Assembly (NCBI RefSeq): GCF_003865345.1
Contig: NZ_RMVE01000001.1
Span: 496,001 to 560,000 of the forward strand
Direction: 5' to 3'
DNA from: Nonlabens xiamenensis
GTDB lineage: Bacteria; Bacteroidota; Bacteroidia; Flavobacteriales; Flavobacteriaceae
Length of the DNA stretch: 64,000 nucleotides
Below the pieces are notes generated by a model. It was not told the origin of the DNA. It made no database searches and was given only the letters and a program-made list of their open reading frames with translations. Shown here piece after piece: positions 1,587-60,062 of this stretch. A program made the position numbers and the translations under genes. Within the stretch, counting starts at the first letter, position 1. Each line of letters starts with the position of its first letter.

Positions 1587-2729
1587 TCAATTTTCTGGAT
1601 TCAAATTAAGCATAAACAATTCGCTAGCAATACCATCGCTTAAGAATTTACCTTTACGTGTCACCAGAAGCCTGTCCCCATCCAGGTAGAGGTAATGATC
1701 CCTAAGGAAACCCTCTGATTGTTCCAAAAGGTAGCTTTTAAAGCTACCCCCAAAGTCTTTTTCGACTTTATCCAATGAGACCCCATAAATAGTGCGCAAG
1801 CCGGTCATTACGTATTCATTATATCGGTCCACGGTGGTTAATACCTCTGTTTCCATAGGTAATTGCCCAGATTGAATGGCCTTGATGTATTTGATGTTGT
1901 TATTGATATTCCACCCGCGGCGTTGGCCATCAAAACTATGTGCGCTAGGACCAATACCCATATAAGATTTCCCGGTCCAATAAGCGGTATTGTTTTGGGA
2001 GAAAAAGCCGGGTTTGCCAAAATTGGAGAATTCATAATTCTGGTAACCATGCAACTGCATTAGATCCAGAAGTATCTGAAAATGTTTTTGGGCTAGTTCA
2101 TCGTCTACCTCCTGGATGAGCCCCTTTTTGATCAAAGATTCCAAAGCTGTATTTTCCTCTACAGTAAGGGCATAACTCGAGATATGGGGCACACCGAGGT
2201 CGATGGCCATATAAAGATTTTCCCTCCATTGCTCTTCACCCATACCAGGTATTCCATAGATAAGGTCAATAGAAATATTGGGGAAATGGCCGATGGCATT
2301 TTTGATACAAGCTTTGGCTTCCTGTGCATTGTGCGCCCTATTCATCAGTTGAAGGTCTGCTTCAAAAAAACTCTGTACACCTATAGAGAGCCTGTTGATC
2401 CGCGTACTGGCTAGAGTAGCAATTTTTTTGTCGCTCAGATCGTCTGGATTGGCCTCCAACGTGATTTCAGGTGTACTAGAAAGTTGGTAGCACTGGTCGA
2501 TTGTTTGTAAAATTTGCTGGATTTCACCCGTTTCTAGTATACTGGGTGTCCCTCCTCCAAAATAAATGGTTTGGACTTCTTTATTCTTGTATTCGCTTTC
2601 GCGAAAGCGTAATTCTTCACATATGGCGTCAATCAAGTCTTTCTTGTGCTTAAAATTAGTGCTAAAATGAAAGTCACAGTAATGGCAGGCCTGCTTGCAA
2701 AAAGGGATGTGAATATAAATGCCGCTCAT
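1587..2729 (-). CDS. hemW: HemW-type radical SAM heme chaperone
   Basis: A 380-residue radical SAM protein of the HemW (formerly HemN-like) family, now understood as a heme chaperone rather than a coproporphyrinogen oxidase. The start chosen is the ATG at 2729 (MSGIYIHIPFCKQACHYC), because the usual HemW N-terminus begins right there; 12 more in-frame codons exist upstream but look non-coding. Cys11, Cys15 and Cys18 form the CxxxCxxC site for the 4Fe-4S cluster. The SAM-binding YFGGGTPS block follows at about residue 62, and the HemW C-terminal domain is complete. One copy of the recurrent palindrome (2594-2609) lies in the coding region and encodes FRES. The downstream partner is the DUF6624 lipoprotein. 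Confidence 0.92.
   Translation of the reverse strand: MSGIYIHIPFCKQACHYCDFHFSTNFKHKKDLIDAICEELRFRESEYKNKEVQTIYFGGGTPSILETGEIQQILQTIDQCYQLSSTPEITLEANPDDLSDKKIATLASTRINRLSIGVQSFFEADLQLMNRAHNAQEAKACIKNAIGHFPNISIDLIYGIPGMGEEQWRENLYMAIDLGVPHISSYALTVEENTALESLIKKGLIQEVDDELAQKHFQILLDLMQLHGYQNYEFSNFGKPGFFSQNNTAYWTGKSYMGIGPSAHSFDGQRRGWNINNNIKYIKAIQSGQLPMETEVLTTVDRYNEYVMTGLRTIYGVSLDKVEKDFGGSFKSYLLEQSEGFLRDHYLYLDGDRLLVTRKGKFLSDGIASELFMLNLNPEN
2594..2609. repeat. 16-bp palindrome CGCTTTCGCGAAAGCG (exact)
   Basis: Exact full-length copy inside hemW, read on the minus strand as R-F-R-E-S. Confidence 0.9.
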
Positions 2730-2904
2730 ACAACAAATATAGTCTTGAGGCGTTAGTAATATCAATTACATCCGACATAATGTCAAATAATATAGATAAA
2801 AAGTGTTAAATTCTGATTTTTAGCATGTTAAACTCGGATAGATAATTATATTCGGCATTGTTTATGTAACCCTTAACATAACTTCTAAAACCCTAATTAA
2901 TTTT

Positions 2905-3864
2905 ATGTTGAACAAATTAGTATTATTTCTTACCATTTTATCAGTCAGTTGGGCTGTTGCTAGCGACAATACTCTTACACCTGACAATGAAGCCACAGAA
3001 TTACCCCATGCTGAGGTGGTTAATTATCAAGACGCAGGACTTCAATTGGCTTTGCAGGATCAGATCAACGCTAATCCGCATTGGAATCGCTTGATACGTC
3101 AAAAACGCATGTCTATAAGTTTGGTGGATATGAGTGAAGTTGGTGCTACCAAATATGCCAACATCAATGGTGATCATATGATGTACGCAGCTAGTATGCC
3201 TAAAATTGCTGTTTTATACGCAGCTATGGATGCCATTGAAGAAGGAGATTTGAGATTAACCAAAGAAATCGAAAAGGATATGTGGTTGATGATTTCAAAA
3301 TCTAACAACGCAGCTTCCACTCGAATGATAGATCGTGTAGGTTTTCAACGCATTGAGGACTTAATGTGTAATCCAGAAAACCCTTTTTACGATAAAAATG
3401 GAATAGGTGGACTTTGGGTTGGTAAGCGGTACGCTGCTGGTGGAAAACGTAATCCTGAACCCATACGTGGGCTAAGCCATGCTGCCACTACTGATGCGGT
3501 TGCCAAATTCTATTATCAGCTGGCTACTGGTCAATTGATTAATGAAAAACGCAGCAAACAAATGTTGCGATATATGAAAAATCCAGGCTTACACCACAAG
3601 TTTGTAAATACCTTAGATAAAATTGCTCCTAATGCCACGCTTTTCAGAAAAAGCGGGTCTTGGAAAAACTGGCATTGTGACTCTATAATGGTATGGGATG
3701 AAAAGCGCGGCAAAAACTATATCCTGGTAGCCATGGTAGAAGATCCTGATGGTGAAAACATTATCAGAAATTTAGTAAAGCCGGCTGAGCTTGCACTGGA
3801 TCAAAGGGCTACCTTAGTACCTGAGATCAACGAAGATGAAATCCTTATTACGGCAGATTCATAA
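2905..3864 (+). CDS. Secreted serine hydrolase, beta-lactamase/transpeptidase fold
   Basis: A 319-residue protein with a signal peptide (about residues 1-19, cleavage near AVAS-DN). It has the three motifs of the serine beta-lactamase fold: S97-M-P-K100, S133-N-N135 and K249-S-G251. No Glu166-type omega-loop motif is obvious, and in this part of the tree such proteins are usually annotated as generic serine hydrolases (Beta-lactamase2 family), so I do not call it a resistance enzyme. A murein-peptide or other periplasmic amide substrate is plausible but inferred. The last 29 bases overlap the start of the transporter-HEAT gene in another frame, suggesting translational coupling. A second protein with the same fold is encoded at 7445-8728. 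Confidence 0.82.
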   Translation: MLNKLVLFLTILSVSWAVASDNTLTPDNEATELPHAEVVNYQDAGLQLALQDQINANPHWNRLIRQKRMSISLVDMSEVGATKYANINGDHMMYAASMPKIAVLYAAMDAIEEGDLRLTKEIEKDMWLMISKSNNAASTRMIDRVGFQRIEDLMCNPENPFYDKNGIGGLWVGKRYAAGGKRNPEPIRGLSHAATTDAVAKFYYQLATGQLINEKRSKQMLRYMKNPGLHHKFVNTLDKIAPNATLFRKSGSWKNWHCDSIMVWDEKRGKNYILVAMVEDPDGENIIRNLVKPAELALDQRATLVPEINEDEILITADS

Positions 3865-6655
3865 TTTCTTTGACATTAGGGACGGAGAGGAATCCGTTTC
3901 CCTGATGATGCAGTTATATATATTTTTAATCATTTGCGCATTGCTGATAGTTAAACCTACAGTCAATGCGCTTTTTTTGTCTGAATTAGGGGCAGAAAAC
4001 CTATCGGTGGCCTTTATTATCATTGCGGTAGTTGCAGTAGTTACATCTTATGCTTACAATAAGTCACTGGAGAAATTTCCGTTGAGATTTATCATCCGCA
4101 CTACACTTATCCTTTTTTCAGCTGGTTTTATGGCCATGGGGGTGATTGTGGCCGCAGGTCTTATCAGTCCTTTTTTTGCGTACTTATTCTACACTATGGT
4201 CGCGATGTTTGCCTTACTGGCCACGTCTCAATTCTGGGTATTGGCCAATGTGGTGTTCAATGTTCGGGAGGCCAAACGTCTTTTTGGGTTCATTGGTGCA
4301 GGAGGTATTGCAGGAGGTATTGTGGGAGGTTATCTGACCTCAGTGTTGGCTGGCTTTTTAGGGAATGGACTACTTATGGTTACCGCAGGTCTTATGATCG
4401 CCAGCTGCACGCTGGTTTTCAAAAATATTTGGAAGACGAGAGTACAAGGTTTGAGTCGCTTTAAAAGAAAAGAAAGAGCCACCGTTTCCACAGAATCTTC
4501 TTTAAAACTTATCTGGAAATCCAGGCATTTGACTTATCTCGCAGCAGTCATCGGATTTGGTGTTTTAGTGGCCAAATTAGTGGATTACCAGTTCAGTGCC
4601 ATCGCCGCGGCCAAGATACCCGATGCACAGGAATTGGCCTCATTTTTCGGATTTTGGTTTTCAACCTTTAATATTGTTTCCCTCGCTATACAACTGTTTG
4701 TCACAAAACGGGTGTTGGAAAATACAGATATCAGTGTAAGTCTTATAGCCTTGCCAGTTGGCGTCGTACTCATGTGCTTGTTATTATTATTCTTCCCAGA
4801 GCTTTGGATCGTGATCATTATTAAAGGTTTGGATGGAAGCTTAAAACAATCCCTTCACAAAAGCGCAGTAGAACTCTTGGCGCTACCGATTCCGTCCAAT
4901 ATAAAAAACAAAACAAAGACCTTTATTGACGTGGTTGTAGACAGTCTGGCTACTGGAGTGGCTGGTTTCCTTCTCATTTTTGTCATCAAAGGCTTGGAGT
5001 TATCTGCCACCTACATCACCGCCATCACGATTTTGATGGTGATAGGGTGGATATATACCGTTTTTAAGGTAAGGGACGCTTATTTGGGCACTTTTAAGGA
5101 AAACATCATGATGCGGGAAAATTTGGGAGATACCAAAAAGTCCAGTGCACGTATCCGTAAAAACATGCGTATCATTTTTGAATCGGGTTCAGAAAAGGAT
5201 ATTTTATTCATGCTGGGTCGCTTGCGCGAAACTGCACACCCGTCCATCAAAAAAGATGTGCTGGCACTGCTGGATCACGAAAGTCATAAAGTAAAGGCGG
5301 CGGTGGTAGAAAACCTTCAATATGTTACCAAAAAGCCCCAACCTAAAGTCCAAGATTTCATCTATATAGAAGATGATGACTTAATTGTGGCGACCATGAA
5401 TTATCTATTGTCTCAAGAAAAACTTTCTCACCAGTTTTTTGAGCAGTATTTGAATTACGAGAACGAATTTATCTCTACGGCTGCTTTAATGTGTCTGGCG
5501 CGGGAGTCGCAGGATAATCCCAAATTGGCTTCCAAATATAATCTTAATCTAAGGGTGAGGGTTTTTATTGACGAGCTGGAAAAAGGACATAGTGACTTGC
5601 GTATTCCTGAAATTACCCGACTGATTGAAACCTTGGGATTCATCAACAGGCCGAAATATCACCATATCATCGTACGTTATCTCAAGCACAAAAATCCTAT
5701 TTTGAAAAACGCGGCAATTATGGCTGCTGGAGAGACCTCAAGAGAAGAATTTTTACCCATACTGTTTGAAGAATTGGAGGATATCGCTTTTCGCGAAAGC
5801 GCCATTTCTGCTATTGCGTCCTACGGAAATGGCATTATTCCCACCTTGTATAAGAAATATTTAGATCCCAATTTATCATTGGTGCAAAAGGCACAAATAC
5901 CTGCGATTACTTACGAAATTCATTCTGCCAGAGCGTATCAAGCCCTTTTCAAAATGAGTCAGCGAGGATCTTTTAAACTGCGTACTAAATCGGCAGATTT
6001 GCTTTACGATTGGCGTAAGAGTGGAGGTGAGTACAACATCAACCATCGCACCCTCAGAAATATGATCAGCGGTGAGTGTAAATTATACCGCGAACTCCTG
6101 GGTTGTTATTTTTCGCTACGTATCATTGATAGGTCTAAATTGCATCCAGAAAAAATAGTGTCACTACCAGAAAAAGCGGAGCGCTCCAAACTTATTCAGC
6201 AATTAAAAAATGCTATGGAAAAAAACCTGCAACGTGTTTTCAATCTTTTGGCATTGTACTATAAACCAGAAGATGTTTATGTGGCTTATAGCGGTTTGCG
6301 CAGTGAGACCAAAGAGTCCCAACTACACGCGATGGAATACCTGGAAGGTTTGTTAAGCCGTAATTTGAAAGGTATGCTACTTCCCATCTTGGAAAATGGA
6401 CTGAGTGTCCCAAATCAAGAATTGAGTGATTACCACAAACATGTCAGCCTGTACAATCAGGAAGATTGTTTAAAAATATTACTGCAGCAAGAGGATCACA
6501 CATTGCTGTTACAAACGATTAAGTTGATTCAATACACTCCAGACGAGTACACTTATAAGCTTTTAATTGAGGCTTCTGATCTGGAAAATGATGCGGTCAG
6601 TGATGCAGCGCTTGATGCCTTGAGATTTAAGCAGGGATCCCAGCAAACAGCTTGA
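3836..6655 (+). CDS. Nucleotide-exchanger/MFS-like membrane protein fused to HEAT-like repeats
   Basis: A 939-residue protein. Residues about 20-430 contain roughly a dozen hydrophobic helices with a glycine-rich helix (GFIGAGGIAGGIVGG near residue 150). The architecture resembles the ATP/ADP antiporter (NTT/TlcA) or MFS families. Residues about 440-939 are soluble, helical and repetitive, with recurring leucine/alanine helices such as LKNAAIMAAGE that look like HEAT repeats. The start at 3836 lies inside the preceding hydrolase gene (29-base overlap). The substrate is unknown, and a nucleotide-exchange role must not be assumed because transport residues were not checked. A near copy of the palindrome at 5785-5801 encodes AFRESA between repeat helices. 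There is no sign of truncation. Confidence 0.72.
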   Translation: MKSLLRQIHNFFDIRDGEESVSLMMQLYIFLIICALLIVKPTVNALFLSELGAENLSVAFIIIAVVAVVTSYAYNKSLEKFPLRFIIRTTLILFSAGFMAMGVIVAAGLISPFFAYLFYTMVAMFALLATSQFWVLANVVFNVREAKRLFGFIGAGGIAGGIVGGYLTSVLAGFLGNGLLMVTAGLMIASCTLVFKNIWKTRVQGLSRFKRKERATVSTESSLKLIWKSRHLTYLAAVIGFGVLVAKLVDYQFSAIAAAKIPDAQELASFFGFWFSTFNIVSLAIQLFVTKRVLENTDISVSLIALPVGVVLMCLLLLFFPELWIVIIIKGLDGSLKQSLHKSAVELLALPIPSNIKNKTKTFIDVVVDSLATGVAGFLLIFVIKGLELSATYITAITILMVIGWIYTVFKVRDAYLGTFKENIMMRENLGDTKKSSARIRKNMRIIFESGSEKDILFMLGRLRETAHPSIKKDVLALLDHESHKVKAAVVENLQYVTKKPQPKVQDFIYIEDDDLIVATMNYLLSQEKLSHQFFEQYLNYENEFISTAALMCLARESQDNPKLASKYNLNLRVRVFIDELEKGHSDLRIPEITRLIETLGFINRPKYHHIIVRYLKHKNPILKNAAIMAAGETSREEFLPILFEELEDIAFRESAISAIASYGNGIIPTLYKKYLDPNLSLVQKAQIPAITYEIHSARAYQALFKMSQRGSFKLRTKSADLLYDWRKSGGEYNINHRTLRNMISGECKLYRELLGCYFSLRIIDRSKLHPEKIVSLPEKAERSKLIQQLKNAMEKNLQRVFNLLALYYKPEDVYVAYSGLRSETKESQLHAMEYLEGLLSRNLKGMLLPILENGLSVPNQELSDYHKHVSLYNQEDCLKILLQQEDHTLLLQTIKLIQYTPDEYTYKLLIEASDLENDAVSDAALDALRFKQGSQQTA
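5785..5801. repeat. Palindrome variant with one inserted T
   Basis: CGCTTTTCGCGAAAGCG: the right arm is perfect and the left arm has an extra T. It lies in the HEAT-repeat region and is read as A-F-R-E-S-A. Confidence 0.65.
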
Positions 6656-8728: not shown

Positions 8729-11637
8729 AGTGCAATTTCTTTATGTAATAATAATTTGGTGTTCACATCAACGTCAGCGTCAATGGAATTGAGGTATTCA
8801 GAATTCTGGGCCTGGCTGTTTTCTACAAATGGCCTGATCTGGAAGAGATATAACTGACCGTCTTTAAAACCCAGCTCAATATCCCAAGCACCAGTATAAC
8901 TTCCATCTTTGCTGCCGGGCATGGTCTCATGTACTTGAACAGCAAATTCGCGGATTGTTTTAAGGTTCTCAGCATTTAAAATGGGTTGGTCAAAATCAAC
9001 TTGTTCCATCACAGACCCGCCAGTAATCGGTAGTTTACGCTGCTGGTTTTCTCGGGCTGGAGATATTAATTGTCCTTCCCCCTCCTTGTTGATCAAATAG
9101 GTTTCAGCACTCTGACCATCCACCGCTCCACCAGCTCCTCGGCTCATCGCCAGGGTAATCTTGTTGTCATCATTATTGATGAAATCTTTGGTGATCAGTA
9201 CACCACTATAATCCACGTCTACCGTAGGGATGATCAATATTGAAGGATAAACGTTTTCTGGATTATCCAGATAAGCTTGCCTCCACTTAAAGCTACGTTC
9301 AGTGTAAGGGCTGGCCCAGACATCCCGGATGCCATTCATCACTTTTTTCCGAGCTACCGCATTGAAAACAGTAAGGTTCAGTCCGGCTCCAGTAAATTCT
9401 TCCAAGTCCTCCATGTTGGTGTCGCTGCGCAGGAAAACAGGCACATTACCCAAACGATCTCCTAGTACAGTATTGAAGTCAGCTTCCAGCGCATCCACAA
9501 AGTTTTTCTTAAACGGCATTGTTGCAATGGCTTCTCTGAGCTGTGACAATTGTTTCAATTGGAAATCGACAACTTCCTGTTCAGCCGTTCCCTGGCTTCT
9601 CATTTGTTTCGCTTTCGCGAAAGCGGACATCAAAAAATCCCAGTAACTGCCGGAGGTTTCTGGCATGGGTTGGTTCATGTGATCCTTAAATACACCAAAT
9701 GGTATGACGATTCCATTAACGACATTATTGGGAAACATTTGTTTGAGTTGACCCAGGTTGGCTGCCTTTGGACCACAGAGAATACCGCTGTCTTTACTGC
9801 CTACCTCGGCCATATTCAGCGGTAAAGTGCCATCCAGTTTGAGCTTGTCTTCAGGAATATGTATTGTCTTTTTTTCTTTTTTCTTGGTTTGGGAGAAAAG
9901 AGACTGTTCCAAATCGCTCATTTCATCACTAGGTTTAAGGACAACGGTACCACGATTGCTCACGGCATAAAAGATCTCTTCGCCATCCAAGGCTTTCAAA
10001 TCTGCGAGATTATCAGTGGAAATAGCGGCATTGGGAATACCCAGATTACGAGCCAATAGTTGGACGTGAGAAACCAGGTTCCCTTCTGCTACCGTCGCAA
10101 TTCCAGCCACCGGTTTTAAATCACTAGGCGGATGATCGAAAATGTAAATATGGTTGGGATTCACATTCATTCCTTCGGCATTTCCTTCCACGACCACAAG
10201 TTTTCCCTTGGTATAACCTGGATTTAAACCCCTTACCGTACTTACATTGTCCACGCCAGAAATCTCGCTGGTCAGCCCTATTTGTCTGGAAACCAATCCA
10301 CCTAAACTCCCGACAGCATCACCCAACGGAAGAAGAAGCGAACTGCGGATGCGGTCGTCATAGAAACCGTAGGCCAAAGGTTCAAAGCCCATGTATTCGT
10401 TGACCACATCACCATAGATGGCATTGACCATTCCAGTTCCCCATTCTACCTGACTACGTCCAGTATTGATAAAGTCCAGCAACTGATGTGCTTCAATAGT
10501 GCGACCCTCGGCCAGGTATAGTTGATCCTCAACAGCATCCCACTCCCAGAGTTCGGTGTATCCCGCACTGGCAAGCGCCTCACTTAAAGCATAGATCTTA
10601 TCCAGATGTTCCTGTAGATCCACAGGCTCCCACTGGCTGGCTTGTTGAAAAATCAATTCTTCCAGGCGTAAACTCAGTTCCAAGGCGTTTGTACGTCGGG
10701 TTCCACGAAGATCTTCTTTGAGGTTTACACGTATATCACACATGAGATTCGCTGCAGCCGGAACCAGAATGGAAGGATTTTTTTCATCTTTATAAAAATT
10801 AGAAAACCATTCTGCCTGGGAACGGATATAAGTGTCCTCTGGCCAGTCGGCTACCATTTTTTCCAATTCGCTTACGGCTACTGGCTCAAAGAAGTCCTGC
10901 ATATCTGATAAGAGCTGGTTAAAATCCTTTTTGGAGGATTCGCTCAGGTCTGATTCATTCTTGTCTAGCCATTCTTTCACGGCATTGATGTCTTGGGCTT
11001 GCGGATTCCCATGGATTTTGATACGCAGATCCATGAATTTGGGATGTTTTTGTGCCAGGACTTTGCTCAAGCTGCGTATTTCTTGTGCCAGATTGGTATC
11101 ACCATCGTGCGGAAGATCCCTTAAGCTTTCGCGGATCAGGAAAAAGTCTCGTTCTACCAAATCGTTGTCCGACAGTATGGTATAATAGAATTTTCTACCC
11201 CACTCTTCTTCATCCTCAATTTGCTTGGCGCCGCGATAAAATCTGGATTTTTCCTGGATCCAACCATTGTCTACCGCCTCGAGATATTTATTGAGTTGGT
11301 ATTGCTTGACCCTACTGTGGTTGTTGTTTCCATCCCAAAAACCCCACACCTTATTGGACGCGAGAATTTCTGAAAAATAAAGGTGCCGAGTTTCTGCCAG
11401 TGCTTTAATTTCAGGTTTATAGCTGGCGTGTTGGATGCCTTCACCTATCGCGTCCGGACATGGATCACGGGCCTCTCTGACACTACCATCTGGGCAAAAC
11501 CAATTGATACTTTTATATGGCCCTCGGTCCAATTGTCTAAATTGAGCAATCATTTCTTTGACACGGGCGTCATCAAATTGCTGTGCTAGACCAATCGTAC
11601 TAAAGAAAATCGGAATCAATAATAAAAATCTCTTCAT
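8725..11637 (-). CDS. Secreted PEP-synthase/dikinase-like protein (phosphohistidine swivel + ATP-grasp)
   Basis: About 970 residues from the ATG at 11637, chosen because a clean signal peptide follows (MKRFLLLIPIFFSTIGLAQ); nine further in-frame codons lie upstream. Residues about 20-460 are unassigned. A PEP-utiliser mobile domain follows at about 475-560, with the motif GNLVSHVQLLARNLGIPNA and likely phospho-accepting His524. A PPDK_N-type ATP-grasp module occupies about 620-955 (GPKAANLGQL, FLRSDTNMEDL, then a final ELGFKDGQLYLFQIRPF). The His domain precedes the ATP-grasp domain, as in glucan water dikinases and opposite to PEP synthase. Export is surprising for an ATP-dependent fold. The palindrome at 9610-9625 encodes AFAKA. 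It is translationally coupled to the downstream serine hydrolase. Confidence 0.75.
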   Translation of the reverse strand: MKRFLLLIPIFFSTIGLAQQFDDARVKEMIAQFRQLDRGPYKSINWFCPDGSVREARDPCPDAIGEGIQHASYKPEIKALAETRHLYFSEILASNKVWGFWDGNNNHSRVKQYQLNKYLEAVDNGWIQEKSRFYRGAKQIEDEEEWGRKFYYTILSDNDLVERDFFLIRESLRDLPHDGDTNLAQEIRSLSKVLAQKHPKFMDLRIKIHGNPQAQDINAVKEWLDKNESDLSESSKKDFNQLLSDMQDFFEPVAVSELEKMVADWPEDTYIRSQAEWFSNFYKDEKNPSILVPAAANLMCDIRVNLKEDLRGTRRTNALELSLRLEELIFQQASQWEPVDLQEHLDKIYALSEALASAGYTELWEWDAVEDQLYLAEGRTIEAHQLLDFINTGRSQVEWGTGMVNAIYGDVVNEYMGFEPLAYGFYDDRIRSSLLLPLGDAVGSLGGLVSRQIGLTSEISGVDNVSTVRGLNPGYTKGKLVVVEGNAEGMNVNPNHIYIFDHPPSDLKPVAGIATVAEGNLVSHVQLLARNLGIPNAAISTDNLADLKALDGEEIFYAVSNRGTVVLKPSDEMSDLEQSLFSQTKKKEKKTIHIPEDKLKLDGTLPLNMAEVGSKDSGILCGPKAANLGQLKQMFPNNVVNGIVIPFGVFKDHMNQPMPETSGSYWDFLMSAFAKAKQMRSQGTAEQEVVDFQLKQLSQLREAIATMPFKKNFVDALEADFNTVLGDRLGNVPVFLRSDTNMEDLEEFTGAGLNLTVFNAVARKKVMNGIRDVWASPYTERSFKWRQAYLDNPENVYPSILIIPTVDVDYSGVLITKDFINNDDNKITLAMSRGAGGAVDGQSAETYLINKEGEGQLISPARENQQRKLPITGGSVMEQVDFDQPILNAENLKTIREFAVQVHETMPGSKDGSYTGAWDIELGFKDGQLYLFQIRPFVENSQAQNSEYLNSIDADVDVNTKLLLHKEIAL
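9610..9625. repeat. 16-bp palindrome CGCTTTCGCGAAAGCG (exact)
   Basis: Exact copy in the ATP-grasp part of the dikinase-like gene, read on the minus strand as A-F-A-K-A. A half-site, GCTTTCGCG, occurs in the same gene near 11125. Confidence 0.9.
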
Positions 11638-13847: not shown

Positions 13848-13862
13848 CGCTTTCGCGAAAGC
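13848..13862. repeat. Palindrome CGCTTTCGCGAAAGC (exact 14-bp core), intergenic
   Basis: One of two intergenic copies. It lies between the terminator and the end of the minus-strand barrel gene. Confidence 0.88.
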
Positions 13863-17642: not shown

Positions 17643-18497
17643 TCAGCCTTTCATGAAAATTACGCCGTCTCCAGATCTTTTATTTTGAAAGCGTTCTTGC
17701 ATTTCTTTTTGCTTTTTGGCCTGCAAGTCATTAAAATCTTCCAATCCGATTTTCTTTCCTTTTTTAGGTTTTTCCAATTCAAAATCAGCCGGGTTCATCT
17801 CAATACGATCACAAAGTATGACTGTATTTCCATCCCTTAATTCCAAAATAAGTCCAGGTAATCCCTGGTAATTTCCTGGTCCATTGCTGATCGGGATGTC
17901 CATTGTAAACCAAGCAGTAATGACTCGTTCATCGCTCCCTGCCATCTCCAACAGTGATGTTTCAACTTCCTGCTCGTCTTTTTCCTCTTTTGGAAAAGTG
18001 TAGGTGGCTTTCATGGCCGTATAATTTCCTATCTTTTTAGATTCTCCGGTCAATTTCCAATCCAGTGGCTTGATCTGGTCAACGATCAAAAATTCTTTGC
18101 CCTGAATCTGGTCTTCGCGTATAAAAGTCTGGTCCACCAAGTTTTTATAGGTGGTCCCGTAAGTATCACCTCCTCCAGAGATTTCAATTGAAATACTCAT
18201 TCCGGATTGTGGTTTGGGCTTGGCTAATTCTTGCACCTTTTCATACAAAGATTCAGTACGTGAAAATTTTAAAGTGAATTCTGCTTTTCCAGCATTTTCC
18301 AACGCGGAAGCAATCATTTTTTGCATTTCTGGATCCAGTTTCTGCATTTTTTTCTGAAGGCTGTCATCTGATTTTTCCATTATCATTTTACTTTTGTAAT
18401 GGGCTATTCCAGTGATTTCCTGTTGGGCGTAGGATAGTTCCGCTTTCGCGAAAGCGATCACCAACAACAAACAAATAGTACGGGTAAATTTTTTCAT
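17643..18497 (-). CDS. GLPGLI family protein (second copy)
   Basis: About 284 residues from the ATG at 18497 (MKKFTRTICLLLVIAFAKA), chosen because it gives a standard signal peptide; an earlier in-frame ATG adds eight charged residues. The motif is GPGNYQGLPGLILEL near residue 206, preceded by WFTMDIPISNGP as in its neighbour. The signal peptide is partly encoded by an exact copy of the recurrent palindrome (18441-18456, I-A-F-A-K-A). It begins the minus-strand run of GLPGLI, GLPGLI and barrel, and is divergent from the histidine kinase gene; the shared intergenic region is 117 bases. Function is unknown for the family. Confidence 0.87.
   Translation of the reverse strand: MKKFTRTICLLLVIAFAKAELSYAQQEITGIAHYKSKMIMEKSDDSLQKKMQKLDPEMQKMIASALENAGKAEFTLKFSRTESLYEKVQELAKPKPQSGMSISIEISGGGDTYGTTYKNLVDQTFIREDQIQGKEFLIVDQIKPLDWKLTGESKKIGNYTAMKATYTFPKEEKDEQEVETSLLEMAGSDERVITAWFTMDIPISNGPGNYQGLPGLILELRDGNTVILCDRIEMNPADFELEKPKKGKKIGLEDFNDLQAKKQKEMQERFQNKRSGDGVIFMKG
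18441..18456. repeat. 16-bp palindrome CGCTTTCGCGAAAGCG (exact)
   Basis: Exact copy within the signal-peptide codons of the second GLPGLI gene. Confidence 0.9.
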
Positions 18498-18614
18498 GAG
18501 ACCTTGAATTTTGTGTTTCAAATATCAACTATTTTTATAGTTAAAGAACTTTCTTCTCGTTAATATATGTTAAGCAGCTTTTCGCTAAGGGTTTAAAGGT
18601 AGACCTTTGGTATT

Positions 18615-22338: not shown

Positions 22339-24483
22339 TTACAGATTATCCAACTGGTTGTCGTTACCTCCTATAGTCCAGAAAAATCCAACAAAAATAA
22401 AACGATCTGCAGCCTGGCCAATAGCCCTACGGTCAAACTGCCCGTTGACATCTGGGGTATTACTATACTGGTAATTAAATATATTGTCTCTTCCCAACAC
22501 ATTGGTCACCGATAGGAAAAGTATTTTTTGATCGTCAATTAAATACGCCCAATTCAGGTTCAGGCTCTGAAAAGACTTGGTTTTGTCATTCAGGAAGCCA
22601 GCTTTATTGGCGTTGGTATAATTTCTCCCACTGGTGTAGTTAAAGGTAATGCCCAGCTGAGATTTCCAGTCTTCCATCCAATATTTCCCAACCAGGCTTA
22701 AGTTGTGCTGGGCCGCAAAGTTAGGCGTGGCCTCTATTGGAAAATTACGGAATTTCCTCTGGGTGTCTAGATAGGAATAGCTCACCCAGTAATCTAAGTT
22801 TTTTACAGATTGCTCGTCCCTCCAAAAAAGGTCCAGACCAGCGGCATAACCCTCACCAGAATTATCAAATTCGCTCAGGAATCCTGGGCGCGCGGTGTCA
22901 TAGGTCAATAAGTTCTCATAATTTTTATAAAAAGCCTCGGCACGCAGCATGCGGTTGCTTTTCTTGTACATAAAATTAGCGATATAATGTTGCGCATTTT
23001 CTGTTTCCAAATCCTGGGCATACTGTTGGATATTGTTTTGGGCCTGCTGATAGAAATTTCCGTAGGCCAGGGAGATTTGCGCATGATCTGTTAGACTGAA
23101 CGCGGCGCTGAGTCTGGGTGAAATCTTTATTGCATCTGTAGCTTGGTAGTAATCCGCTCTTACTCCTGTTTTAAAGGCTACTTTTTTGGAGGCAAATATT
23201 TCTGCTTCCGCGAAAGCGCCCGTCAAACCGTAATCGATCCCAGAGGTAAACCTATTTCCATCAAAACGTCCGCTTTCTTCATAATCCACAAGAAATTGCT
23301 CTGCGCCAAAATTTAATTTAAAGTAGTTATTGTAGCGCTTCTTTAGTTTTAACTTGGCGTGAAATGCATCTTCCCTGGCGTCGATATGATTCTCTGCTAT
23401 GCCTAAATCATTGCCGTCATGGGCCAGGCTGATACCAGTGTCGATACTCCAGCTGTCTGACAATTGCCCATCATAATTCAAATTACCATAATAATTACGG
23501 TTCCTCAGACCAAAAAAGAAGCCATCTTCTATATTGATATCCTCTTGAATCAAACTGAAATTACTGTAGGAATAAGCGCTGTAAGCCTTGAACAAACCTT
23601 TATCCAATTCCCTTCTATACACCGCTTCACCACTTAATAGTTCGTACGGATCCACAAACTGGTTATTTTGCGGAATGACCTCGTTATAAGGTGCTAAATT
23701 GTAGTAGGTAGCATTTACACTTACACTGTTTTTATCCCATATTTCTGTGTGCCCCAGACTCCCCCCTACACTCATAAAACCCAGATCAGTTTTTTCCTCT
23801 ACGGGAAAATCGGTGGTGTTTAAGAGCAATACACTAGACAGGGCATCGCCATATTCTGCGCTGTATCCGCCGGTAGAGAATGTAATTCCGTCAAATAAAA
23901 AGGGAGAAAATCGCCCGCGGGTAGGAATGTTACCAGTGGTAGGCAAAAATGGACGGAACACCCGACTACCGTCAATAAAAATTTGAGTTTCATCTGCACT
24001 ACCTCCTCTTACAAAGAGTCGGCCATCATCTGCATTATTGGTCGTGCCTGGTAAAGTTTGCAAAGCACCTAAAACATCGCCTACGGCACCGGCCGTGGTC
24101 ACAATATCGAGCGGCTTAAGAACACTGGCCTCAGAACTGTCTCCTGCGCTCAAACTCCCTGCACTTAAAATCACGGTGTTTAAAGCATTCATGCTTTCGC
24201 GTAAGCGTATTTTCAAATCATTTAATTCAGTTACTGATGCTTGCAAGCTGTATTCTTCATAGCCTATATAACTGGCGATCAGGGTGGCCGTGGGGTTTTC
24301 TTCAGTTTGAAAAGAAAAGGCACCATTCAGATCTGTAGTAGTTCCATTATAGGTTCCTTCAAGATACACATTGACACCCATGATAGGCTGGCCCTGGAAG
24401 TCCATTACTGTACCAGTGATTTTGGTCTGAGCAGTGGAAAATAGACTGAAAGAAAATAATAAAAAGAAGGCTAAATTTTTCAT
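22339..24483 (-). CDS. TonB-dependent receptor with CarboxypepD_reg-like domain
   Basis: A 714-residue outer-membrane receptor. It has a signal peptide (about residues 1-19), a CarboxypepD_reg-like domain (about 20-105, GTVMDFQGQPIMGVNVYLEG) and a plug with RLFVRGGSADETQIFIDG (about 155-175), then a barrel to the C-terminus. It is shorter than SusC-type receptors and has no SusD neighbour, so small-ligand uptake (siderophore, vitamin or metal complex) is more likely than glycan uptake; the ligand is unknown. Two palindrome variants lie in the gene (23204-23218 and 24193-24207). The start is 152 bases from the divergent aminotransferase ATG. Confidence 0.9.
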   Translation of the reverse strand: MKNLAFFLLFSFSLFSTAQTKITGTVMDFQGQPIMGVNVYLEGTYNGTTTDLNGAFSFQTEENPTATLIASYIGYEEYSLQASVTELNDLKIRLRESMNALNTVILSAGSLSAGDSSEASVLKPLDIVTTAGAVGDVLGALQTLPGTTNNADDGRLFVRGGSADETQIFIDGSRVFRPFLPTTGNIPTRGRFSPFLFDGITFSTGGYSAEYGDALSSVLLLNTTDFPVEEKTDLGFMSVGGSLGHTEIWDKNSVSVNATYYNLAPYNEVIPQNNQFVDPYELLSGEAVYRRELDKGLFKAYSAYSYSNFSLIQEDINIEDGFFFGLRNRNYYGNLNYDGQLSDSWSIDTGISLAHDGNDLGIAENHIDAREDAFHAKLKLKKRYNNYFKLNFGAEQFLVDYEESGRFDGNRFTSGIDYGLTGAFAEAEIFASKKVAFKTGVRADYYQATDAIKISPRLSAAFSLTDHAQISLAYGNFYQQAQNNIQQYAQDLETENAQHYIANFMYKKSNRMLRAEAFYKNYENLLTYDTARPGFLSEFDNSGEGYAAGLDLFWRDEQSVKNLDYWVSYSYLDTQRKFRNFPIEATPNFAAQHNLSLVGKYWMEDWKSQLGITFNYTSGRNYTNANKAGFLNDKTKSFQSLNLNWAYLIDDQKILFLSVTNVLGRDNIFNYQYSNTPDVNGQFDRRAIGQAADRFIFVGFFWTIGGNDNQLDNL
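23204..23218. repeat. Palindrome variant GCTTCCGCGAAAGCG
   Basis: One mismatch to the core. It is inside the TonB-dependent receptor gene, read on the minus strand as A-F-A-E-A. Confidence 0.6.
24193..24207. repeat. Palindrome variant GCTTTCGCGTAAGCG
   Basis: One mismatch to the core. It is in the CarboxypepD_reg-like region of the receptor gene, read as R-L-R-E-S. Confidence 0.6.
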
Positions 24484-40192: not shown

Positions 40193-40208
40193 CGCTTTCG
40201 CGAAAGCG
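40193..40208. repeat. 16-bp palindrome CGCTTTCGCGAAAGCG (exact), intergenic
   Basis: Exact copy in the 50-base spacer between the ATP-grasp gene and the acylase gene, 22 bases before the acylase ATG on its transcript. Confidence 0.9.
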
Positions 40209-46145: not shown

Positions 46146-46223
46146 GATTTCCTGCGCTAGCTACAGCTCAGGAGGCTCGATCTATGATCATTGAGCTTCA
46201 TAAAAATTAAATAACTGAACGTT

Positions 46224-48587: not shown

Positions 48588-50453
48588 ATGAAAAAAATAC
48601 TTGTCCTTTGTTTTACCGTCTTGCTATTGGCAAGCTGTGGTTCTAAACAATCAACAACCCAGGCTAACAACTCTTCAAAAGCTGCTACCTATTGGCAACA
48701 GCATGTAGATTATCAGATGGATGTCCAAATGGATGTTCACCGATATCAGTATACTGGTTCTCAGGAATTAGTATATACCAATAATTCTCCAGAGACCCTT
48801 GACCGGGTATATTATCACCTCTTTTTCAATGCTTTTCAACCAGGCAGCCAAATGGACGTAAGATCCAGAACTATTTCTGACCCCGATCGTCGTGTAGGTT
48901 CTCGTATTGCGTCACTTTCTCCTAACGAGCAGGGATACTTACATGTCAACAACATGACGCAGGATGGTAGGGCTGTTCAAGCCAGCGAGGAGGGCACAAT
49001 TTTGGTAGTGGAGCTGGCCAAGCCCATAGGTCCAGGTGAGTCATCTACTTTGAAATTGGATTTTAACGGTCAGGTTCCTGTACAGATCAGACGTAGTGGT
49101 AGAAACAATGCTGAAGGTGTCGCCCTTTCCATGACCCAGTGGTTTCCCAAAATGGCCGAATTTGATAAATACGGTTGGAACACCACTCCATATATAGGAA
49201 GGGAATTTCATGGTGTTTGGGGAGATTTTGATGTCAAAATTACCTTGGACAAAGATTACACGATTGGGGGAACGGGTTACCTACAAAACCCCAAAGATAT
49301 AGGTCATGGGTATGATCAACCCAACTCCGGTCCTGCCAAAGGAAAAGATGGGAAATTGACCTGGCATTTCAAAGCTCCTCGTGTACACGACTTTGCCTGG
49401 GGCGCAGATCCGAATTATATCCACGATATTTACAAGGGAGCAAACGGAGTTGATCTTCACTTCTTTTACAAAGACAATGATGCTATCAAAGAAAACTGGA
49501 AAAGACTTCAGCCCACAACCAATGACTTCCTAAAATACTTTAATGAAAATATTGGCCCTTATCCATATAAGCAATATTCTGTTATCCAGGGTGGAGATGG
49601 AGGAATGGAATATGCCATGTGTACCTTAATTACCGGTGAGCGTAACTTTGGTAGTTTGGCAGGAGTAACTGCTCACGAGTTTGCCCACTCTTGGTTCAAT
49701 CACGTACTGGCTACCGATGAATCAAAACATGAGTGGATGGATGAAGGCTTTACGACCTACATTTCCAGTCTTGCCATGAACGACTTGTTTGATGAGGGCA
49801 AGAAAAATCCTCATCTTTCGTCCTATCAGAGTTATATCTATTTGGCCAATTCTGGCACCGAAAAACCACAAACCACTCACGCAGACCGATACGATACCAA
49901 TCGCGCTTATGGTATAACGGCCTATGGAAAAGGCGCTGTCTTTTTAAGTCAGCTTGGATATATTGTGGGTATGGATGTACGTGACCAAATCATCAAGGAA
50001 TACTATGACACCTGGAAATTCAAACATCCAGATCCCAATGATTTCAAGAGGGTCGCTGAACGCGTCAGTGGCTTTGACCTGGAATGGTATCTACGTGACT
50101 GGACCATGACTACCAATACAATTGACTATGCGATTGAGGATATGGGAAGTGTGGATGGAGTGAGTACGGTAACGCTTTCGCGAAAGGGGCTAATGCCGAT
50201 GCCACTGGATGTCCAGGTCACTATGACTGATGGATCTAAAAAAATGTACTATATCCCGCTCGAAGAGATGAGAGGGCAAAAGCAAGTAGACCGCAACACA
50301 GCGATTGTGGAAGATTGGGCATGGGCTTACCCGACCTATGAATTAAAACTAGAGGGAGTGAACATGGAAAATATACGCAGCGTGACTATAGATCCAGAAG
50401 AATGGATGGCTGATGTAGATCGTGAGAACAACACTTGGCAACTGGAAGAATAA
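48588..50453 (+). CDS. M1-family aminopeptidase, lipoprotein
   Basis: A 621-residue lipoprotein (lipobox LASC, Cys17) of the gluzincin M1 family. The zinc site is H363-E-F-A-H367 with third ligand Glu386 in WMDEGF, the exact HExxH-x18-E spacing. The substrate-recognition loop is GGMEYAM, in place of the classical GAMEN, about 30 residues upstream. It removes N-terminal residues from peptides in the periplasm or at the surface, with probable nutritional use of peptides. A palindrome near-copy at 50173-50187 encodes L-S-R-K. It is followed by a strong terminator. Confidence 0.92.
   Translation: MKKILVLCFTVLLLASCGSKQSTTQANNSSKAATYWQQHVDYQMDVQMDVHRYQYTGSQELVYTNNSPETLDRVYYHLFFNAFQPGSQMDVRSRTISDPDRRVGSRIASLSPNEQGYLHVNNMTQDGRAVQASEEGTILVVELAKPIGPGESSTLKLDFNGQVPVQIRRSGRNNAEGVALSMTQWFPKMAEFDKYGWNTTPYIGREFHGVWGDFDVKITLDKDYTIGGTGYLQNPKDIGHGYDQPNSGPAKGKDGKLTWHFKAPRVHDFAWGADPNYIHDIYKGANGVDLHFFYKDNDAIKENWKRLQPTTNDFLKYFNENIGPYPYKQYSVIQGGDGGMEYAMCTLITGERNFGSLAGVTAHEFAHSWFNHVLATDESKHEWMDEGFTTYISSLAMNDLFDEGKKNPHLSSYQSYIYLANSGTEKPQTTHADRYDTNRAYGITAYGKGAVFLSQLGYIVGMDVRDQIIKEYYDTWKFKHPDPNDFKRVAERVSGFDLEWYLRDWTMTTNTIDYAIEDMGSVDGVSTVTLSRKGLMPMPLDVQVTMTDGSKKMYYIPLEEMRGQKQVDRNTAIVEDWAWAYPTYELKLEGVNMENIRSVTIDPEEWMADVDRENNTWQLEE
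50173..50187. repeat. Palindrome variant CGCTTTCGCGAAAGG
   Basis: The last base of the core differs. It is inside the M1 peptidase gene, in the third codon phase (T-L-S-R-K-G). Confidence 0.6.
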
Positions 50454-52946: not shown

Positions 52947-55109
52947 ATGAATAAATATCTAATCGGAGCAGTGGCTTTGGCGGCACTGACCTCCTGTAAA
53001 AACGATCAAGAAAAAACCCAAAGCCTAGCCATGAAGTATCCTGATACCAAGAAAGTGGATACCGTTGATGTTTATCACGGTGTTGAAGTAGCAGATCCCT
53101 ACAGATGGCTGGAAGATGATCGTAGCGAGGAAACTGAGGCCTGGGTCAAAGCCCAAAATGAGGTCACGCAAAACTACTTGTCACAAATCAGCTTTCGCGA
53201 AAGCATCAAAAAAAGACTCACCGAACTCTGGAATTATGAAAAGATAGGGACTCCTTTTGACGAAGGCGATTTTACTTATTTCTACAAGAACGACGGACTC
53301 CAAAATCAATATGTCATCTATCGTTATCCCAAGGGAGGCGATGAAGACCAAGCCGAAGTTTTCCTTGATCCCAATACGTTCAGTGAAAAGGGGACTACCT
53401 CATTGGGGGGTGCCAGTTTTACGGAGGATGGTTCGCTATTTGCCTATTCGATCAGTGAGGGCGGAAGTGATTGGCGCAAGATCATCGTTCTGGACACCAA
53501 AACCATGGAAAAAGTTGGGGATACCCTCAAAGATGTAAAATTTTCTGGGATGTCCTGGAAAGGCAATGATGGATTCTTTTATTCCAGTTACGACAAGCCA
53601 AAGGGAAGCGAATTAAGTGCGATGACCGACCAGCATAAACTTTATTATCACAAGTTGGGTACGTCCCAATCGCAGGATCAGGTCATCTTTGGAGGTACGC
53701 CAGATCAAAAATACCGTTATGTAGGTGGGCGGGTAACAAATGACCAAAAATACCTTGTTATTTCTGCCAGCACTTCCACTAATGGAGGTAAATTGTTTAT
53801 CAAGGAACTGGATCGTCCAGACGCGCCGCTGGTGACCATTCTCGATAATTTTGATACCAATACCTACTTGATTCACAATGAAGGCAGCAAACTCTGGTTG
53901 GTGACTGACTATGAAGCGCCTAATAAGAAGATCGTCATCACTGATTTTTCGAATCCAACACAGGAGAATTGGAAAGATGTCATTCCTGAAACAGAACACG
54001 TGCTTTCTCCTTCCACAGGAGGGGGCTATATTTTTGCTGAATATATGGTAGACGCCGTCTCACAGGTCAAACAATTTCAATATGACGGTGAATTGGTCAG
54101 AGAAGTGGAATTGCCTGGTGTAGGTAATGTTGGTGGTTTTGGTGCCAAAGAGGAAGATGAAACCTTGTATTATAGCTTTACCAATTATACAACTCCTGGA
54201 AGCAGTTATCTCTACGATATTGAAAAAGGAACCTCAGAGCTTTTCAGGAAACCAGCCATCAAATTTGATAGTGATGCCTATGAAAGCAAGCAAATATTCT
54301 ACACGTCCAAGGATGGCACGCAGATCCCCATGATCATCTCCCATAAAAGAGGACTGCCGCTCGATGGCAAGAACCCGACTATCCTCTACGGATACGGAGG
54401 TTTTAATATTTCTCTCAACCCTTCTTTTTCTGTCACCAGGGCAGCCTGGATGGAAATGGGTGGCGTCTATGCTGTGGCCAACTTGCGTGGCGGTGGAGAA
54501 TACGGAAAGAAATGGCATGATGCAGGTACCAAAACCGACAAACAAAATGTATTTGACGATTTCATAGCGGCAGGAGAGTGGCTGAAGGACAATCAATATA
54601 CAGATACGCAACACTTGGCCATTCAGGGAGGGTCCAACGGCGGACTCCTAGTAGGGGCCACGATGACCCAGCGACCTGACTTAGCAGGAGTTGCCTTCCC
54701 AGCAGTTGGTGTGCTGGATATGTTGAGATATAATAAATTTACTGCGGGAGCCGGATGGGCGTATGACTATGGAACTGCCGAAGAAGGTAAAGAAATGTTT
54801 GAATATCTGAGGGGATATTCTCCATTGCATAACATCAAAAGCGGTATTGAATACCCAGCTACCTTAATTACAACTGGAGATCATGACGATAGGGTGGTGC
54901 CAGCTCACTCCTTTAAGTTTGCCGCCGAGCTCCAATCTAAACAATCAGGAGATCAGCCCACTTTGATTAGGATAGAGACAGACGCAGGTCATGGAGCAGG
55001 AAAATCAACTGAGCAGCAAATCCAAGAATGGACCGATATTTATGGGTTTGGTCTGTACAATATGGGTTACAACCAGTTGCCTGATGTCAATAAACGTATT
55101 AAAATGTAG
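52947..55109 (+). CDS. S9A prolyl oligopeptidase
   Basis: A 720-residue peptidase, probably a lipoprotein (LTSC, Cys17). The N-terminal seven-bladed propeller (about 60-440) follows a PYRWLED block that is diagnostic of prolyl oligopeptidase. In the C-terminal alpha/beta-hydrolase domain, the nucleophile is Ser563 (GGSNGG), with the acid in DHDDRVVP and the His in AGHGAGKS. It cleaves after proline in short peptides, here in the periplasm. An exact palindrome core (53191-53204) encodes S-F-R-E-S. Tight spacing suggests cotranscription with the T9SS protein gene. Confidence 0.93.
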   Translation: MNKYLIGAVALAALTSCKNDQEKTQSLAMKYPDTKKVDTVDVYHGVEVADPYRWLEDDRSEETEAWVKAQNEVTQNYLSQISFRESIKKRLTELWNYEKIGTPFDEGDFTYFYKNDGLQNQYVIYRYPKGGDEDQAEVFLDPNTFSEKGTTSLGGASFTEDGSLFAYSISEGGSDWRKIIVLDTKTMEKVGDTLKDVKFSGMSWKGNDGFFYSSYDKPKGSELSAMTDQHKLYYHKLGTSQSQDQVIFGGTPDQKYRYVGGRVTNDQKYLVISASTSTNGGKLFIKELDRPDAPLVTILDNFDTNTYLIHNEGSKLWLVTDYEAPNKKIVITDFSNPTQENWKDVIPETEHVLSPSTGGGYIFAEYMVDAVSQVKQFQYDGELVREVELPGVGNVGGFGAKEEDETLYYSFTNYTTPGSSYLYDIEKGTSELFRKPAIKFDSDAYESKQIFYTSKDGTQIPMIISHKRGLPLDGKNPTILYGYGGFNISLNPSFSVTRAAWMEMGGVYAVANLRGGGEYGKKWHDAGTKTDKQNVFDDFIAAGEWLKDNQYTDTQHLAIQGGSNGGLLVGATMTQRPDLAGVAFPAVGVLDMLRYNKFTAGAGWAYDYGTAEEGKEMFEYLRGYSPLHNIKSGIEYPATLITTGDHDDRVVPAHSFKFAAELQSKQSGDQPTLIRIETDAGHGAGKSTEQQIQEWTDIYGFGLYNMGYNQLPDVNKRIKM
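53191..53204. repeat. Palindrome GCTTTCGCGAAAGC (exact 14-bp core)
   Basis: Located in the N-terminal part of the prolyl oligopeptidase gene, read as S-F-R-E-S. Confidence 0.88.
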
Positions 55110-58770: not shown

Positions 58771-59481
58771 TTAATTCATACCACGCTCACTGCGTATGTT
58801 TTCATAAGCTTCCTGAACCTTGCGGAATTTCTCCTCGGCACCTTTTCTATGGGCCTCATCCATGTCCATGAGTTTGTCGGGATGGTATTTTTTGGCCATA
58901 GTTCGATATGCCTTTTTAACCTCGTGATCTGGGACAGACTTATCTATTTCCAAAATCTTATAAGCGTTGTCCTGATCAGCCACAAACATAGCTTTGATGG
59001 ATACAAAATCCCGATCAGACAATCTTAAATATCTGGCGATCTGTTGGATCATGTGGAGTTCGGCATTGCCTACATGACCATCAGCCTGAGCAATTCCAAA
59101 TAAAAAGTGTAGGATTTGTAATCTGGATTCGTATCTGGTTCGGGCGGTCAAATAGTTACAAATATTTTGCGCATTGACCTCGCGTTTTTTGACCACTTCA
59201 TTAAATGTTCTAAAAATAGCATTGGCCCGATCCTTTCCATAGGCACTGACAAAATATTGTCTTACGTAGTCTAATTCCTTTTGGCTGACATGGCCATCGG
59301 CCTTGATGACCAAGGAGGTGAGTGACAACAGGTTCAATTCAAAATCTTGCGGGCTCACACTTGTACTGCGTTGCGTGTACGGGCTTCCGTAAGTGCGTTG
59401 GGTTTGGGAGCCATTACTTAAAAAAGCAGTGTAAATCCACCTGAGGATAAAGAAGATTGCTAAATAGCCTAAAAATGACAT
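58771..59481 (-). CDS. Membrane-anchored TerB/DnaJ (DjlA-like) protein
   Basis: A 236-residue protein from the ATG at 59481 (MSFLGYLAIFFILRWIYTAF); six extra in-frame codons upstream look non-coding. An N-terminal transmembrane anchor is at about residues 3-19. A TerB-like helical domain follows at about 48-160 (TSLVIKADGHVSQKELDYV, then GIAQADGHVGNAELHMI). A C-terminal J domain (about 168-236) has the HPD motif in AKKYHPDKL. This is the DjlA architecture, a membrane-bound DnaK co-chaperone. Its target is unknown. It lies downstream of the SUF-associated genes and upstream of truB. Confidence 0.87.
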   Translation of the reverse strand: MSFLGYLAIFFILRWIYTAFLSNGSQTQRTYGSPYTQRSTSVSPQDFELNLLSLTSLVIKADGHVSQKELDYVRQYFVSAYGKDRANAIFRTFNEVVKKREVNAQNICNYLTARTRYESRLQILHFLFGIAQADGHVGNAELHMIQQIARYLRLSDRDFVSIKAMFVADQDNAYKILEIDKSVPDHEVKKAYRTMAKKYHPDKLMDMDEAHRKGAEEKFRKVQEAYENIRSERGMN

Positions 59482-59549
59482 AGAATGTGTTTGAAACAAG
59501 AGACCTTGAGCTGCGTCATCGTGGTTGGGTGTTCAGTTATTGGCCGGAT

Positions 59550-60062
59550 TTAAGATTTCTTTCGCTTATAAACAGGAACAGCACTGCATGCCTCTCCATA
59601 CATGATCGACTTGGCCACAGATTGTAAGCGTTCTGTTATCATCGCATAGGCTGCCACAGGCACTGGCTTGTTGGAACAACCTTTCACGATTACTGGGTGA
59701 TCCTGAAAATCTGATAGATCTAGCTGCTCAATGCTTGAACGGTACAGCGCTGTTTCCAATTGCTCCAGGTTACCGTAGACGGTCAATGCAGCGATATCCT
59801 TGAGCTGGCTTTGAACGAGCATCCAGGCCCATTGAGGTATAATAGCATCGGTACTGCAGTAGATGGCTACAAAATGACCTTGATATACGCTAAAGTCTGT
59901 GGATTTTAAACTTTCGCGAAAGCGGGATTCTACCAGTACAATACCCTCCAACAACCATTGAGAGATATCAATTTGACTTCGTTCACCGGCGGCGTAGTAA
60001 TCTTCCAGGTCAAGAACCTTGAGTTTGGACTGTGCTACTCTATTGATGATCTCTTCGGCCAT
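59550..60062 (-). CDS. DUF2480 family protein
   Basis: A 170-residue soluble protein of the Bacteroidota DUF2480 family, recognised by the terminal block KGCSNKPVPVAAYAMITERL and YGEACSAVPVYK. Two cysteines in these motifs (in KGCS and EACS) are possible metal or cluster ligands. It is the last gene of a tight run (2-base gap after the SufT-like gene), so it is likely linked to Fe-S assembly, though no activity is known. A palindrome variant at 59911-59924 encodes R-F-R-E-S. The start ATG at 60062 is clear. Confidence 0.82.
   Translation of the reverse strand: MAEEIINRVAQSKLKVLDLEDYYAAGERSQIDISQWLLEGIVLVESRFRESLKSTDFSVYQGHFVAIYCSTDAIIPQWAWMLVQSQLKDIAALTVYGNLEQLETALYRSSIEQLDLSDFQDHPVIVKGCSNKPVPVAAYAMITERLQSVAKSIMYGEACSAVPVYKRKKS
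59911..59924. repeat. Palindrome variant CTTTCGCGAAAGCG
   Basis: Preceded by A in place of the first G of the core. It is within the DUF2480 gene, read on the minus strand as R-F-R-E-S. Confidence 0.6.

Follow-up and report, generated by a model that had tools for sequence, protein, structure and literature searches.

The stretch of DNA analysed here (the window) comprises 64 kb of the Nonlabens xiamenensis genome (G000; 3.68 Mb on 13 contigs), i.e., positions C5:496001-560000, along which the palindromic 14-bp word GCTTTCGCGAAAGC recurs at the places listed in Table 1. Eight exact and six near copies of the word were identified, as compared to 0.13 copies expected at up to two mismatches when the sequence is shuffled. 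A preliminary description of this DNA had reported these 14 copies, all of which are present no more than two bases off the positions it gave, and its division into exact and near copies holds as well, the near ones being five copies with one mismatch and a single copy with two. It had further placed 12 of the 14 copies in genes, a count which has to be corrected to 13 when open reading frames (ORFs) of at least 100 amino acids (aa) are considered, leaving one copy intergenic. The three codon phases it had described, read as FRES, AFAKA and LSRK, all occur among the ORFs of the window, and the two copies it had assigned to signal peptides do reside in N-termini which are signal-peptide-like by eye. 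Since all codon phases are used, intergenic copies exist and orthologous positions are kept exact (see below), its proposal that the DNA word rather than the peptide is selected or spread is borne out. What the window alone could not have revealed is that the word extends over about 50 bp, is restricted to few genera, that its copies avoid one another and that they also occur on mobile elements elsewhere.

Table 1. Copies of the word in the window, followed by three further features of the N. xiamenensis genome.
Feature	Coordinates	Context	Remarks
Exact site	2595..2608	HemN-like radical SAM ORF 1587-2765(-)	FRES phase
Near site, 2 mismatches	5787..5800	TLC transporter/HEAT ORF 3836-6655(+)	
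Exact site	9611..9624	PPDK_N-domain ORF 8725-11664(-)	AFAKA phase
Exact site	13849..13862	Intergenic, between ORFs 12435-13799(+) and 13910-16615(-)	
Exact site	18442..18455	ORF 17643-18521(-)	Codon 23; signal-peptide-like; AFAKA phase
Near site, 1 mismatch	23204..23217	TonB-plug/CarboxypepD_reg ORF 22339-24483(-)	
Near site, 1 mismatch	24193..24206	TonB-plug/CarboxypepD_reg ORF 22339-24483(-)	
Exact site	27814..27827	Polysaccharide-synthesis ORF 26394-27860(+)	Codon 474/488
Exact site	32607..32620	M23 peptidase ORF 32562-33767(+)	Codon 16; signal-peptide-like; AFAKA phase
Near site, 1 mismatch	38169..38182	GDSL-lipase ORF 36682-38268(-)	
Exact site	40194..40207	AstE/AspA ORF 39286-40242(-)	Codon 12; LSRK phase
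Near site, 1 mismatch	50174..50187	M1 peptidase ORF 48588-50453(+)	
Exact site	53191..53204	Prolyl oligopeptidase ORF 52947-55109(+)	Codon 82; FRES phase
Near site, 1 mismatch	59910..59923	ORF 59550-60062(-)	
sdhA 3' spacer without site	46146..46223		Site probably lost
parS pair	G000:C5:457916-459824		About 36 kb from window start
Type IV pilus (T4P)/type II secretion system (T2SS)-type ATPase	G000:C12:16568-17587		PF00437 over cut-off

Counting over the whole N. xiamenensis genome identified 553 exact copies and none of the reversed control word, so the word is neither confined to the window nor, as had been claimed from the window already, a product of chance. Samples of 0.66 Mb of this genome and of 1.22 Mb of a complete Nonlabens genome (G002; 3,914,632 bp), which we take to be that of N. 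dokdonensis DSW-6, gave 89 and 265 exact copies respectively, the runner-up palindromic 14-mer reaching three copies in each. Markov models of orders 2-4 expect fewer than 0.005 copies in both samples, and order 5, itself already trained on the sites, expects 0.15 (N. xiamenensis) and 1.6 (G002); the 89 copies thus stand against a background of 0.001-0.15 over orders 2-5.

At about 50 bp, the complete element is dyad-symmetric, with the 14-mer forming its core and A recurring periodically in the flanks. Outward from the core, the G002 copies carry G at +1 (93%) and A at +4, +7, +10 and +13 (80, 57, 75 and 62%), with G being depleted out to about +20, and the flanks in N. xiamenensis are similar and weaker. 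The A pattern of G002 is most pronounced in copies that are intergenic or in AFAKA phase and is weaker in the remaining two phases, and its left and right flanks show no positive correlation, which argues for two half-sites and not a hairpin. Nearly the entire core is required, as the G002 sample holds 265, 26 and 7 copies with zero, one and two mismatches, distributed over 1, 42 and 819 variants, while the corresponding N. xiamenensis copies number 89, 17 and 6. In whole genomes the ratio of near (one or two mismatches) to exact copies amounts to 0.12-0.32 in ten Nonlabens, 0.49 in G266 and 0.79 in G250, the latter two belonging to other genera, with reversed controls at up to two mismatches giving 11-48 places.

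Within a set of 99 genomes of relatives, 288-857 copies were found in 23 of 23 Nonlabens (N. xiamenensis and 22 congeners), the whole-genome density differing about two-fold between congeners, and among the 76 other genomes six hold 1-6 copies and 70 none. A family sample of 397 Flavobacteriaceae genomes identified hundreds of copies in six, namely four Nonlabens as well as G250 (408) and G266 (857), which represent two other genera with one site-rich genome each; the remaining 391 hold 0-19 copies (74 with 1-19, 317 with none). Outside the family, a single copy was found in six of 266 genomes within a phylum sample of 296, and 79 other named loci of Flavobacteriaceae or Bacteroidota (1.55 Mb together) gave eight places at up to two mismatches, as compared to four for the reversed control. 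Screening 79 further Flavobacteriaceae loci for long words that recur gave four 12-mers, AT-rich and palindromic, and four 13-mers that are no palindromes, none of them in more than one locus, and no report of the word was found in the open-licence literature on Nonlabens palindromes, competence and repeats and on uptake sequences of Flavobacteria and Bacteroidetes.

Single-gene trees (SdhA, ComEC) place the site-rich genomes in two to three separate lineages. A quick-method SdhA tree of 107 rows needs three changes to account for its 22 site-rich rows, and its well-supported branches force three, while two changes are forced in a 14-row SdhA tree and in a 20-row ComEC tree, in which the rows of G266 and G138 read short; given these two forced changes, G250 and Nonlabens may have shared one gain, followed by a loss in the Leeuwenhoekiella-like line of G204. 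The latter genome holds nine exact sites and 86 at up to two mismatches (20 in the control), which could be relics, but a 22-kb Leeuwenhoekiella locus (L308) has no place at up to two mismatches. Among the best 80 matches of an SdhA scan of named genomes, one Nonlabens record is listed, which is 94% identical and site-rich and groups with the congeners in the SdhA tree.

Placement of the sampled sites relative to genes rests on crude ORF calls, according to which 117 of 265 sites in G002 are intergenic, as compared to about 11% noncoding DNA, and 148 reside in ORFs, while 22 of 89 are intergenic in N. xiamenensis. The class of intergenic region matches expectation by length in G002, without an excess in convergent gaps, and seven of the 22 intergenic N. 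xiamenensis sites locate to divergent gaps (3.8 expected). Sites in genes prefer the first 35 codons, where 32 of 132 were found as compared to 13.3 expected, and 20 of 65 as compared to 6.3.

Sites mostly avoid one another below about 1.5 kb. On C5, the gaps between the first 100 listed places have a mean of 6.0 kb and a coefficient of variation (CV) of 0.56 (0.99 when random), none of the 99 being shorter than 1.5 kb where 21.7 were expected; in the samples, 15 pairs less than 1.5 kb apart were counted in G002, of which two lie within 250 bp, and three in N. xiamenensis, with 73 and 17 expected. The gap CV is below random also in the listed stretches of G016, G004 and G266, those of G004 including three short gaps of 33, the smallest being 270 bp, and for G250 the evenness, not significant on nine gaps (P 0.13), reached significance on 57 (CV 0.72, P 0.005). 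Counts per 20 kb of G002 are under-dispersed (index 0.47), and over 61 stretches of this genome no trend from origin to terminus was significant (distance from parS, Spearman -0.20, P 0.13), nor was the first harmonic of site density (P 0.22), though its phase lies near parS.

Comparison of orthologous positions between N. xiamenensis and G002 (mean identity 70.7%) revealed 11 of 13 sites to be exact, as compared to 2% for random 14-mers. For the sdh loci of Nonlabens, 313 of 321 pair comparisons are exact, as compared to 8% for random 14-mers in the same alignments, whereby these comparisons are not independent and the exact word helps to seed the alignments. All 22 congeners possess a site just after sdhA, no farther than about 60 bp from its end; the place is the same in most of them, G015 and G005 having longer, different spacers. 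The site is missing from eight genomes of other genera, including G250 and G266. Its absence from N. xiamenensis (Table 1), together with the weaker flanks, suggests that this lineage maintains the site more weakly.

In site-poor genera, copies are often clustered, and several of the fetched clusters are homologous to one another and partly to a region of G002. These clusters were classed as putative integrative and conjugative elements (ICEs), based on their spread and a 616-aa ParB-like ORF near one of them (G033). Across 13 such loci in eight genomes, 106 of 184 partner comparisons are exact (20.6 expected at a mean identity of 77.7%), whereby one in-gene site gives 56 of the 106 and 50 of 120 remain without it. 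This in-gene site is retained in eight of nine elements, and when the ninth is left out its 16-column run holds all fully identical 14-column windows (3 of 1515). These values are biased upward, as holding some site was the reason for fetching the loci, and against retention stand many other ICE sites, exact in none or one of three to six partners, as well as the comparison with the G002 copy, in which three of eight are exact (1.6 expected). Variants at one mobile-element site are point mutations. At least 21 site rows with typical flanks passed the flank filter among 120 listed stretches of IMG/VR contigs, and the lytic Nonlabens phages P12024S and P12024L hold no site at up to two mismatches in their 70.7 kb. 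Annotated in these phages are an HMC glucosyltransferase and a methyltransferase (P12024L; L387:17279-18674) and a DNA methyltransferase (P12024S).

That a strict, symmetric, evenly spread and taxon-restricted word is kept on mobile as well as host DNA suggests a reader which is sequence-specific. The reading favoured here, tentatively and at a strength somewhat short of probable, is that the word serves as an uptake-sequence-like tag of self-DNA which is spread by transformation, a role that the preliminary description had not proposed and which fits better than those it had. A reader, probably dimeric and residing in Nonlabens and the two other genera, would recognise site-bearing DNA and favour its uptake through ComEC and its recombination, as a consequence of which alleles with the site would spread by molecular drive; reader, uptake step and drive are what we infer here. 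One site per fragment would be enough, so that sites would come to be spaced at fragment scale, and mobile elements living in these hosts would gain the site and bring it into other genera. Uptake combined with molecular drive would thus explain why sites are spaced and permissively placed as they are, why variants arise by point mutation and why mobile elements bear a donor signature.

The DNA uptake sequences (DUS) of Neisseriaceae and the uptake signal sequences (USS) of Pasteurellaceae, the latter possessing extended flanks, share with the Nonlabens word its massive over-representation within few taxa, its genic and noncoding copies with enrichment at permissive positions, and its steep fall with mismatch load along with point-mutational gain. 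In the respective reports, DUS and USS are described as hundreds to thousands of taxon-restricted copies in coding and noncoding DNA, with noncoding excess, even spacing and gain by point mutation (PMC1939737, PMC7371117, PMC3630211), the noncoding excess and the point-mutational origin being stated in PMC1939737. PMC7371117 further documents donor-type DUS on neisserial ICEs, a signature paralleling the mobile-element copies in site-poor genera. The Nonlabens word differs in its palindromic 14-bp core within a symmetric element of about 50 bp, in occurring in Bacteroidota and in that the T4P/T2SS ATPase is not genus-wide.

Several points weigh against uptake. ComEC was found in 26 of 26 genomes tested and, being present in all 14 site-poor ones, does not discriminate; as a shared, transferred reader it was rejected, as the ComEC tree does not unite Nonlabens with G250 and G266. 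The T4P/T2SS-type ATPase (PF00437) exceeds the cut-off in three of 23 Nonlabens (G000, G004 and G007), hence the known T4P route is not genus-wide, and uptake by itself accounts neither for this missing ATPase nor for the palindrome, the known uptake words being non-palindromic. Moreover, the spacing is strikingly even, and a fixed binding site would account equally well for how strictly positions are conserved. Regarding ComEC itself, the Nonlabens proteins (L388-L394) sit on a long branch of the tree, and the Pfam scores in 12 site-rich genomes are below those in 13 of 14 site-poor ones.

A more far-reaching version, which is possible if less likely than not, assumes that a horizontally acquired reader of the dyad-symmetric tag of about 50 bp entered two to three separate Flavobacteriaceae lineages and rewrote each chromosome with 400-860 evenly spaced copies of the same 14-mer, conjugative elements keeping the tag as a passport. 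If true, this would be sequence-coded self-DNA recognition of a new type in Bacteroidota, independent of type IV pili. Neisseriaceae and Pasteurellaceae are known to possess self-DNA words, while for Flavobacteriales PMC7965970 reports competence and self-preference in Riemerella, with R. columbina, of the same order, preferring its own DNA; the k-mer count given there, which is limited to short words, has A-rich words at its top. With a strict palindromic word present at high density in two to three lineages, the reader should be findable by phyletic profiling, and molecular drive versus intracellular function becomes directly testable. On mobile elements, the word may further serve to trace gene flow that came from Nonlabens-type hosts.

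A rival idea is that of a nucleoid- or chromosome-organising protein, for which the word would be an abundant even anchor, like the SlmA, Noc and MatP sites but genome-wide. Dyad symmetry with independent half-sites, the strict 14-bp core, even spacing and strong positional conservation are all consistent with such an anchor, yet we consider it unlikely in view of the non-significant trend from origin to terminus in G002, the about two-fold density difference between congeners, the mobile-element copies in genera without chromosomal abundance, the ordinary ParB/parS and the patchy taxonomy, the word being absent from most of the family sample. A protein-binding role of some kind, as listed in the preliminary description, may still apply. 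Noc, SlmA, MatP and ParB sites are palindromic words of protein-site type in many copies, though far fewer than those of the Nonlabens word, which moreover lacks the significant bias towards origin or terminus and also resides on mobile elements. Segregation, which had been considered initially, is unsupported in a ParB-based form: all 26 genomes tested carry either a ParB close to 300 aa long or a match above the cut-off, the ParB_N search gave a single match in 10 of 12 site-rich genomes, and an exact canonical parS with a one-mismatch copy 1.9 kb apart is kept in 7 of 7 Nonlabens searched. A shift of the ParB/parS system was therefore rejected, ParB being ordinary and the word spread over the whole chromosome instead of residing in few copies near the origin, with the canonical parS separate and intact. 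Additional ParB-like ORFs of about 600 aa occur in six of the 26 genomes, two of which are site-rich. Chi, at about one per 5 kb in E. coli, has a comparable density but is short, asymmetric and orientation-biased, the Nonlabens word being a palindrome.

Alternatively, the word might be a self/non-self tag of defence, with a nuclease or exclusion system sparing site-bearing DNA and chromosome and resident mobile elements keeping their sites. The exactness on mobile elements of site-poor genera described above, to which one site contributes more than half, and the IMG/VR contigs with sites in typical flanks would fit this idea, but it is improbable, as P12024S and P12024L do without the site, though their annotated DNA-modifying enzymes could protect them. 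The preliminary description had also considered a methylation target or a HIP1-like word, which would be made or kept by a short-recognition DNA methyltransferase, and in being palindromic and highly iterated the Nonlabens word, which contains CGCG and TCGCGA, does resemble HIP1 and the alternate HIPs of cyanobacteria (PMC4390886). According to the same source, HIP1 is an 8-mer of which one-off forms are common and for which a cognate methyltransferase exists, whereas the Nonlabens word is longer and its inner words of four to eight bases are not, or only slightly, enriched outside full sites: CGCG occurs 805 times (1204 expected) in G002 and 657 times (1196) in N. xiamenensis, TCGCGA 87 (125) and 57 (103) times, and TTCGCGAA 17 (13) and 14 (8.9) times. 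The inner 10- and 12-mers are enriched (14 versus 1.4 and 7 versus 0.0 in G002; 9 versus 0.8 and 5 versus 0.0 in N. xiamenensis), which near-matches of the full site also predict. Two methyltransferase families were searched in 12 site-rich genomes, of which 6 lack PF00145 and 4 lack PF01555, so neither tracks the word, and this origin is very improbable. An RNA-level element (hairpin, terminator) or a small mobile palindrome, like the repetitive extragenic palindromic (REP) sequences, is scarcely credible: a stem of 5-6 bp could form and T-runs adjoin some intergenic sites, but left and right flanks show no match apart from the consensus that each has of its own, compensated double changes amount to 0 of 6 and 0 of 7, convergent gaps show no excess and variants at one site are point mutations. 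REP sequences and bacterial interspersed mosaic elements (BIMEs) were rejected since the 148 in-ORF sites of the G002 sample are not extragenic.

A recombination hot spot at the site was considered and rejected. Alignments ending no more than 15 bp from a site number 10 (4.1 expected) in the ICE loci, all 10 stemming from locus L143; 55 (10.5) in the sdh loci, where sites reside in poorly alignable spacers; and two (0.8) for N. xiamenensis versus G002. One viral stretch, L224, has a junction at its site when compared with three others, and none of these results is convincing. The viral contig stretches L224:2309 and L220:6838 align on one side of the site only, a possible mosaic junction. In one ICE copy (L143:18198-18289) the N-terminal site is interrupted by a longer in-frame stretch which looks like a second signal peptide by eye. 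Finally, genomes of five genera (G138, G147, G161, G275 and G220) have in common two sites with a distance of exactly 933 bp, the mark of one mobile-element family.

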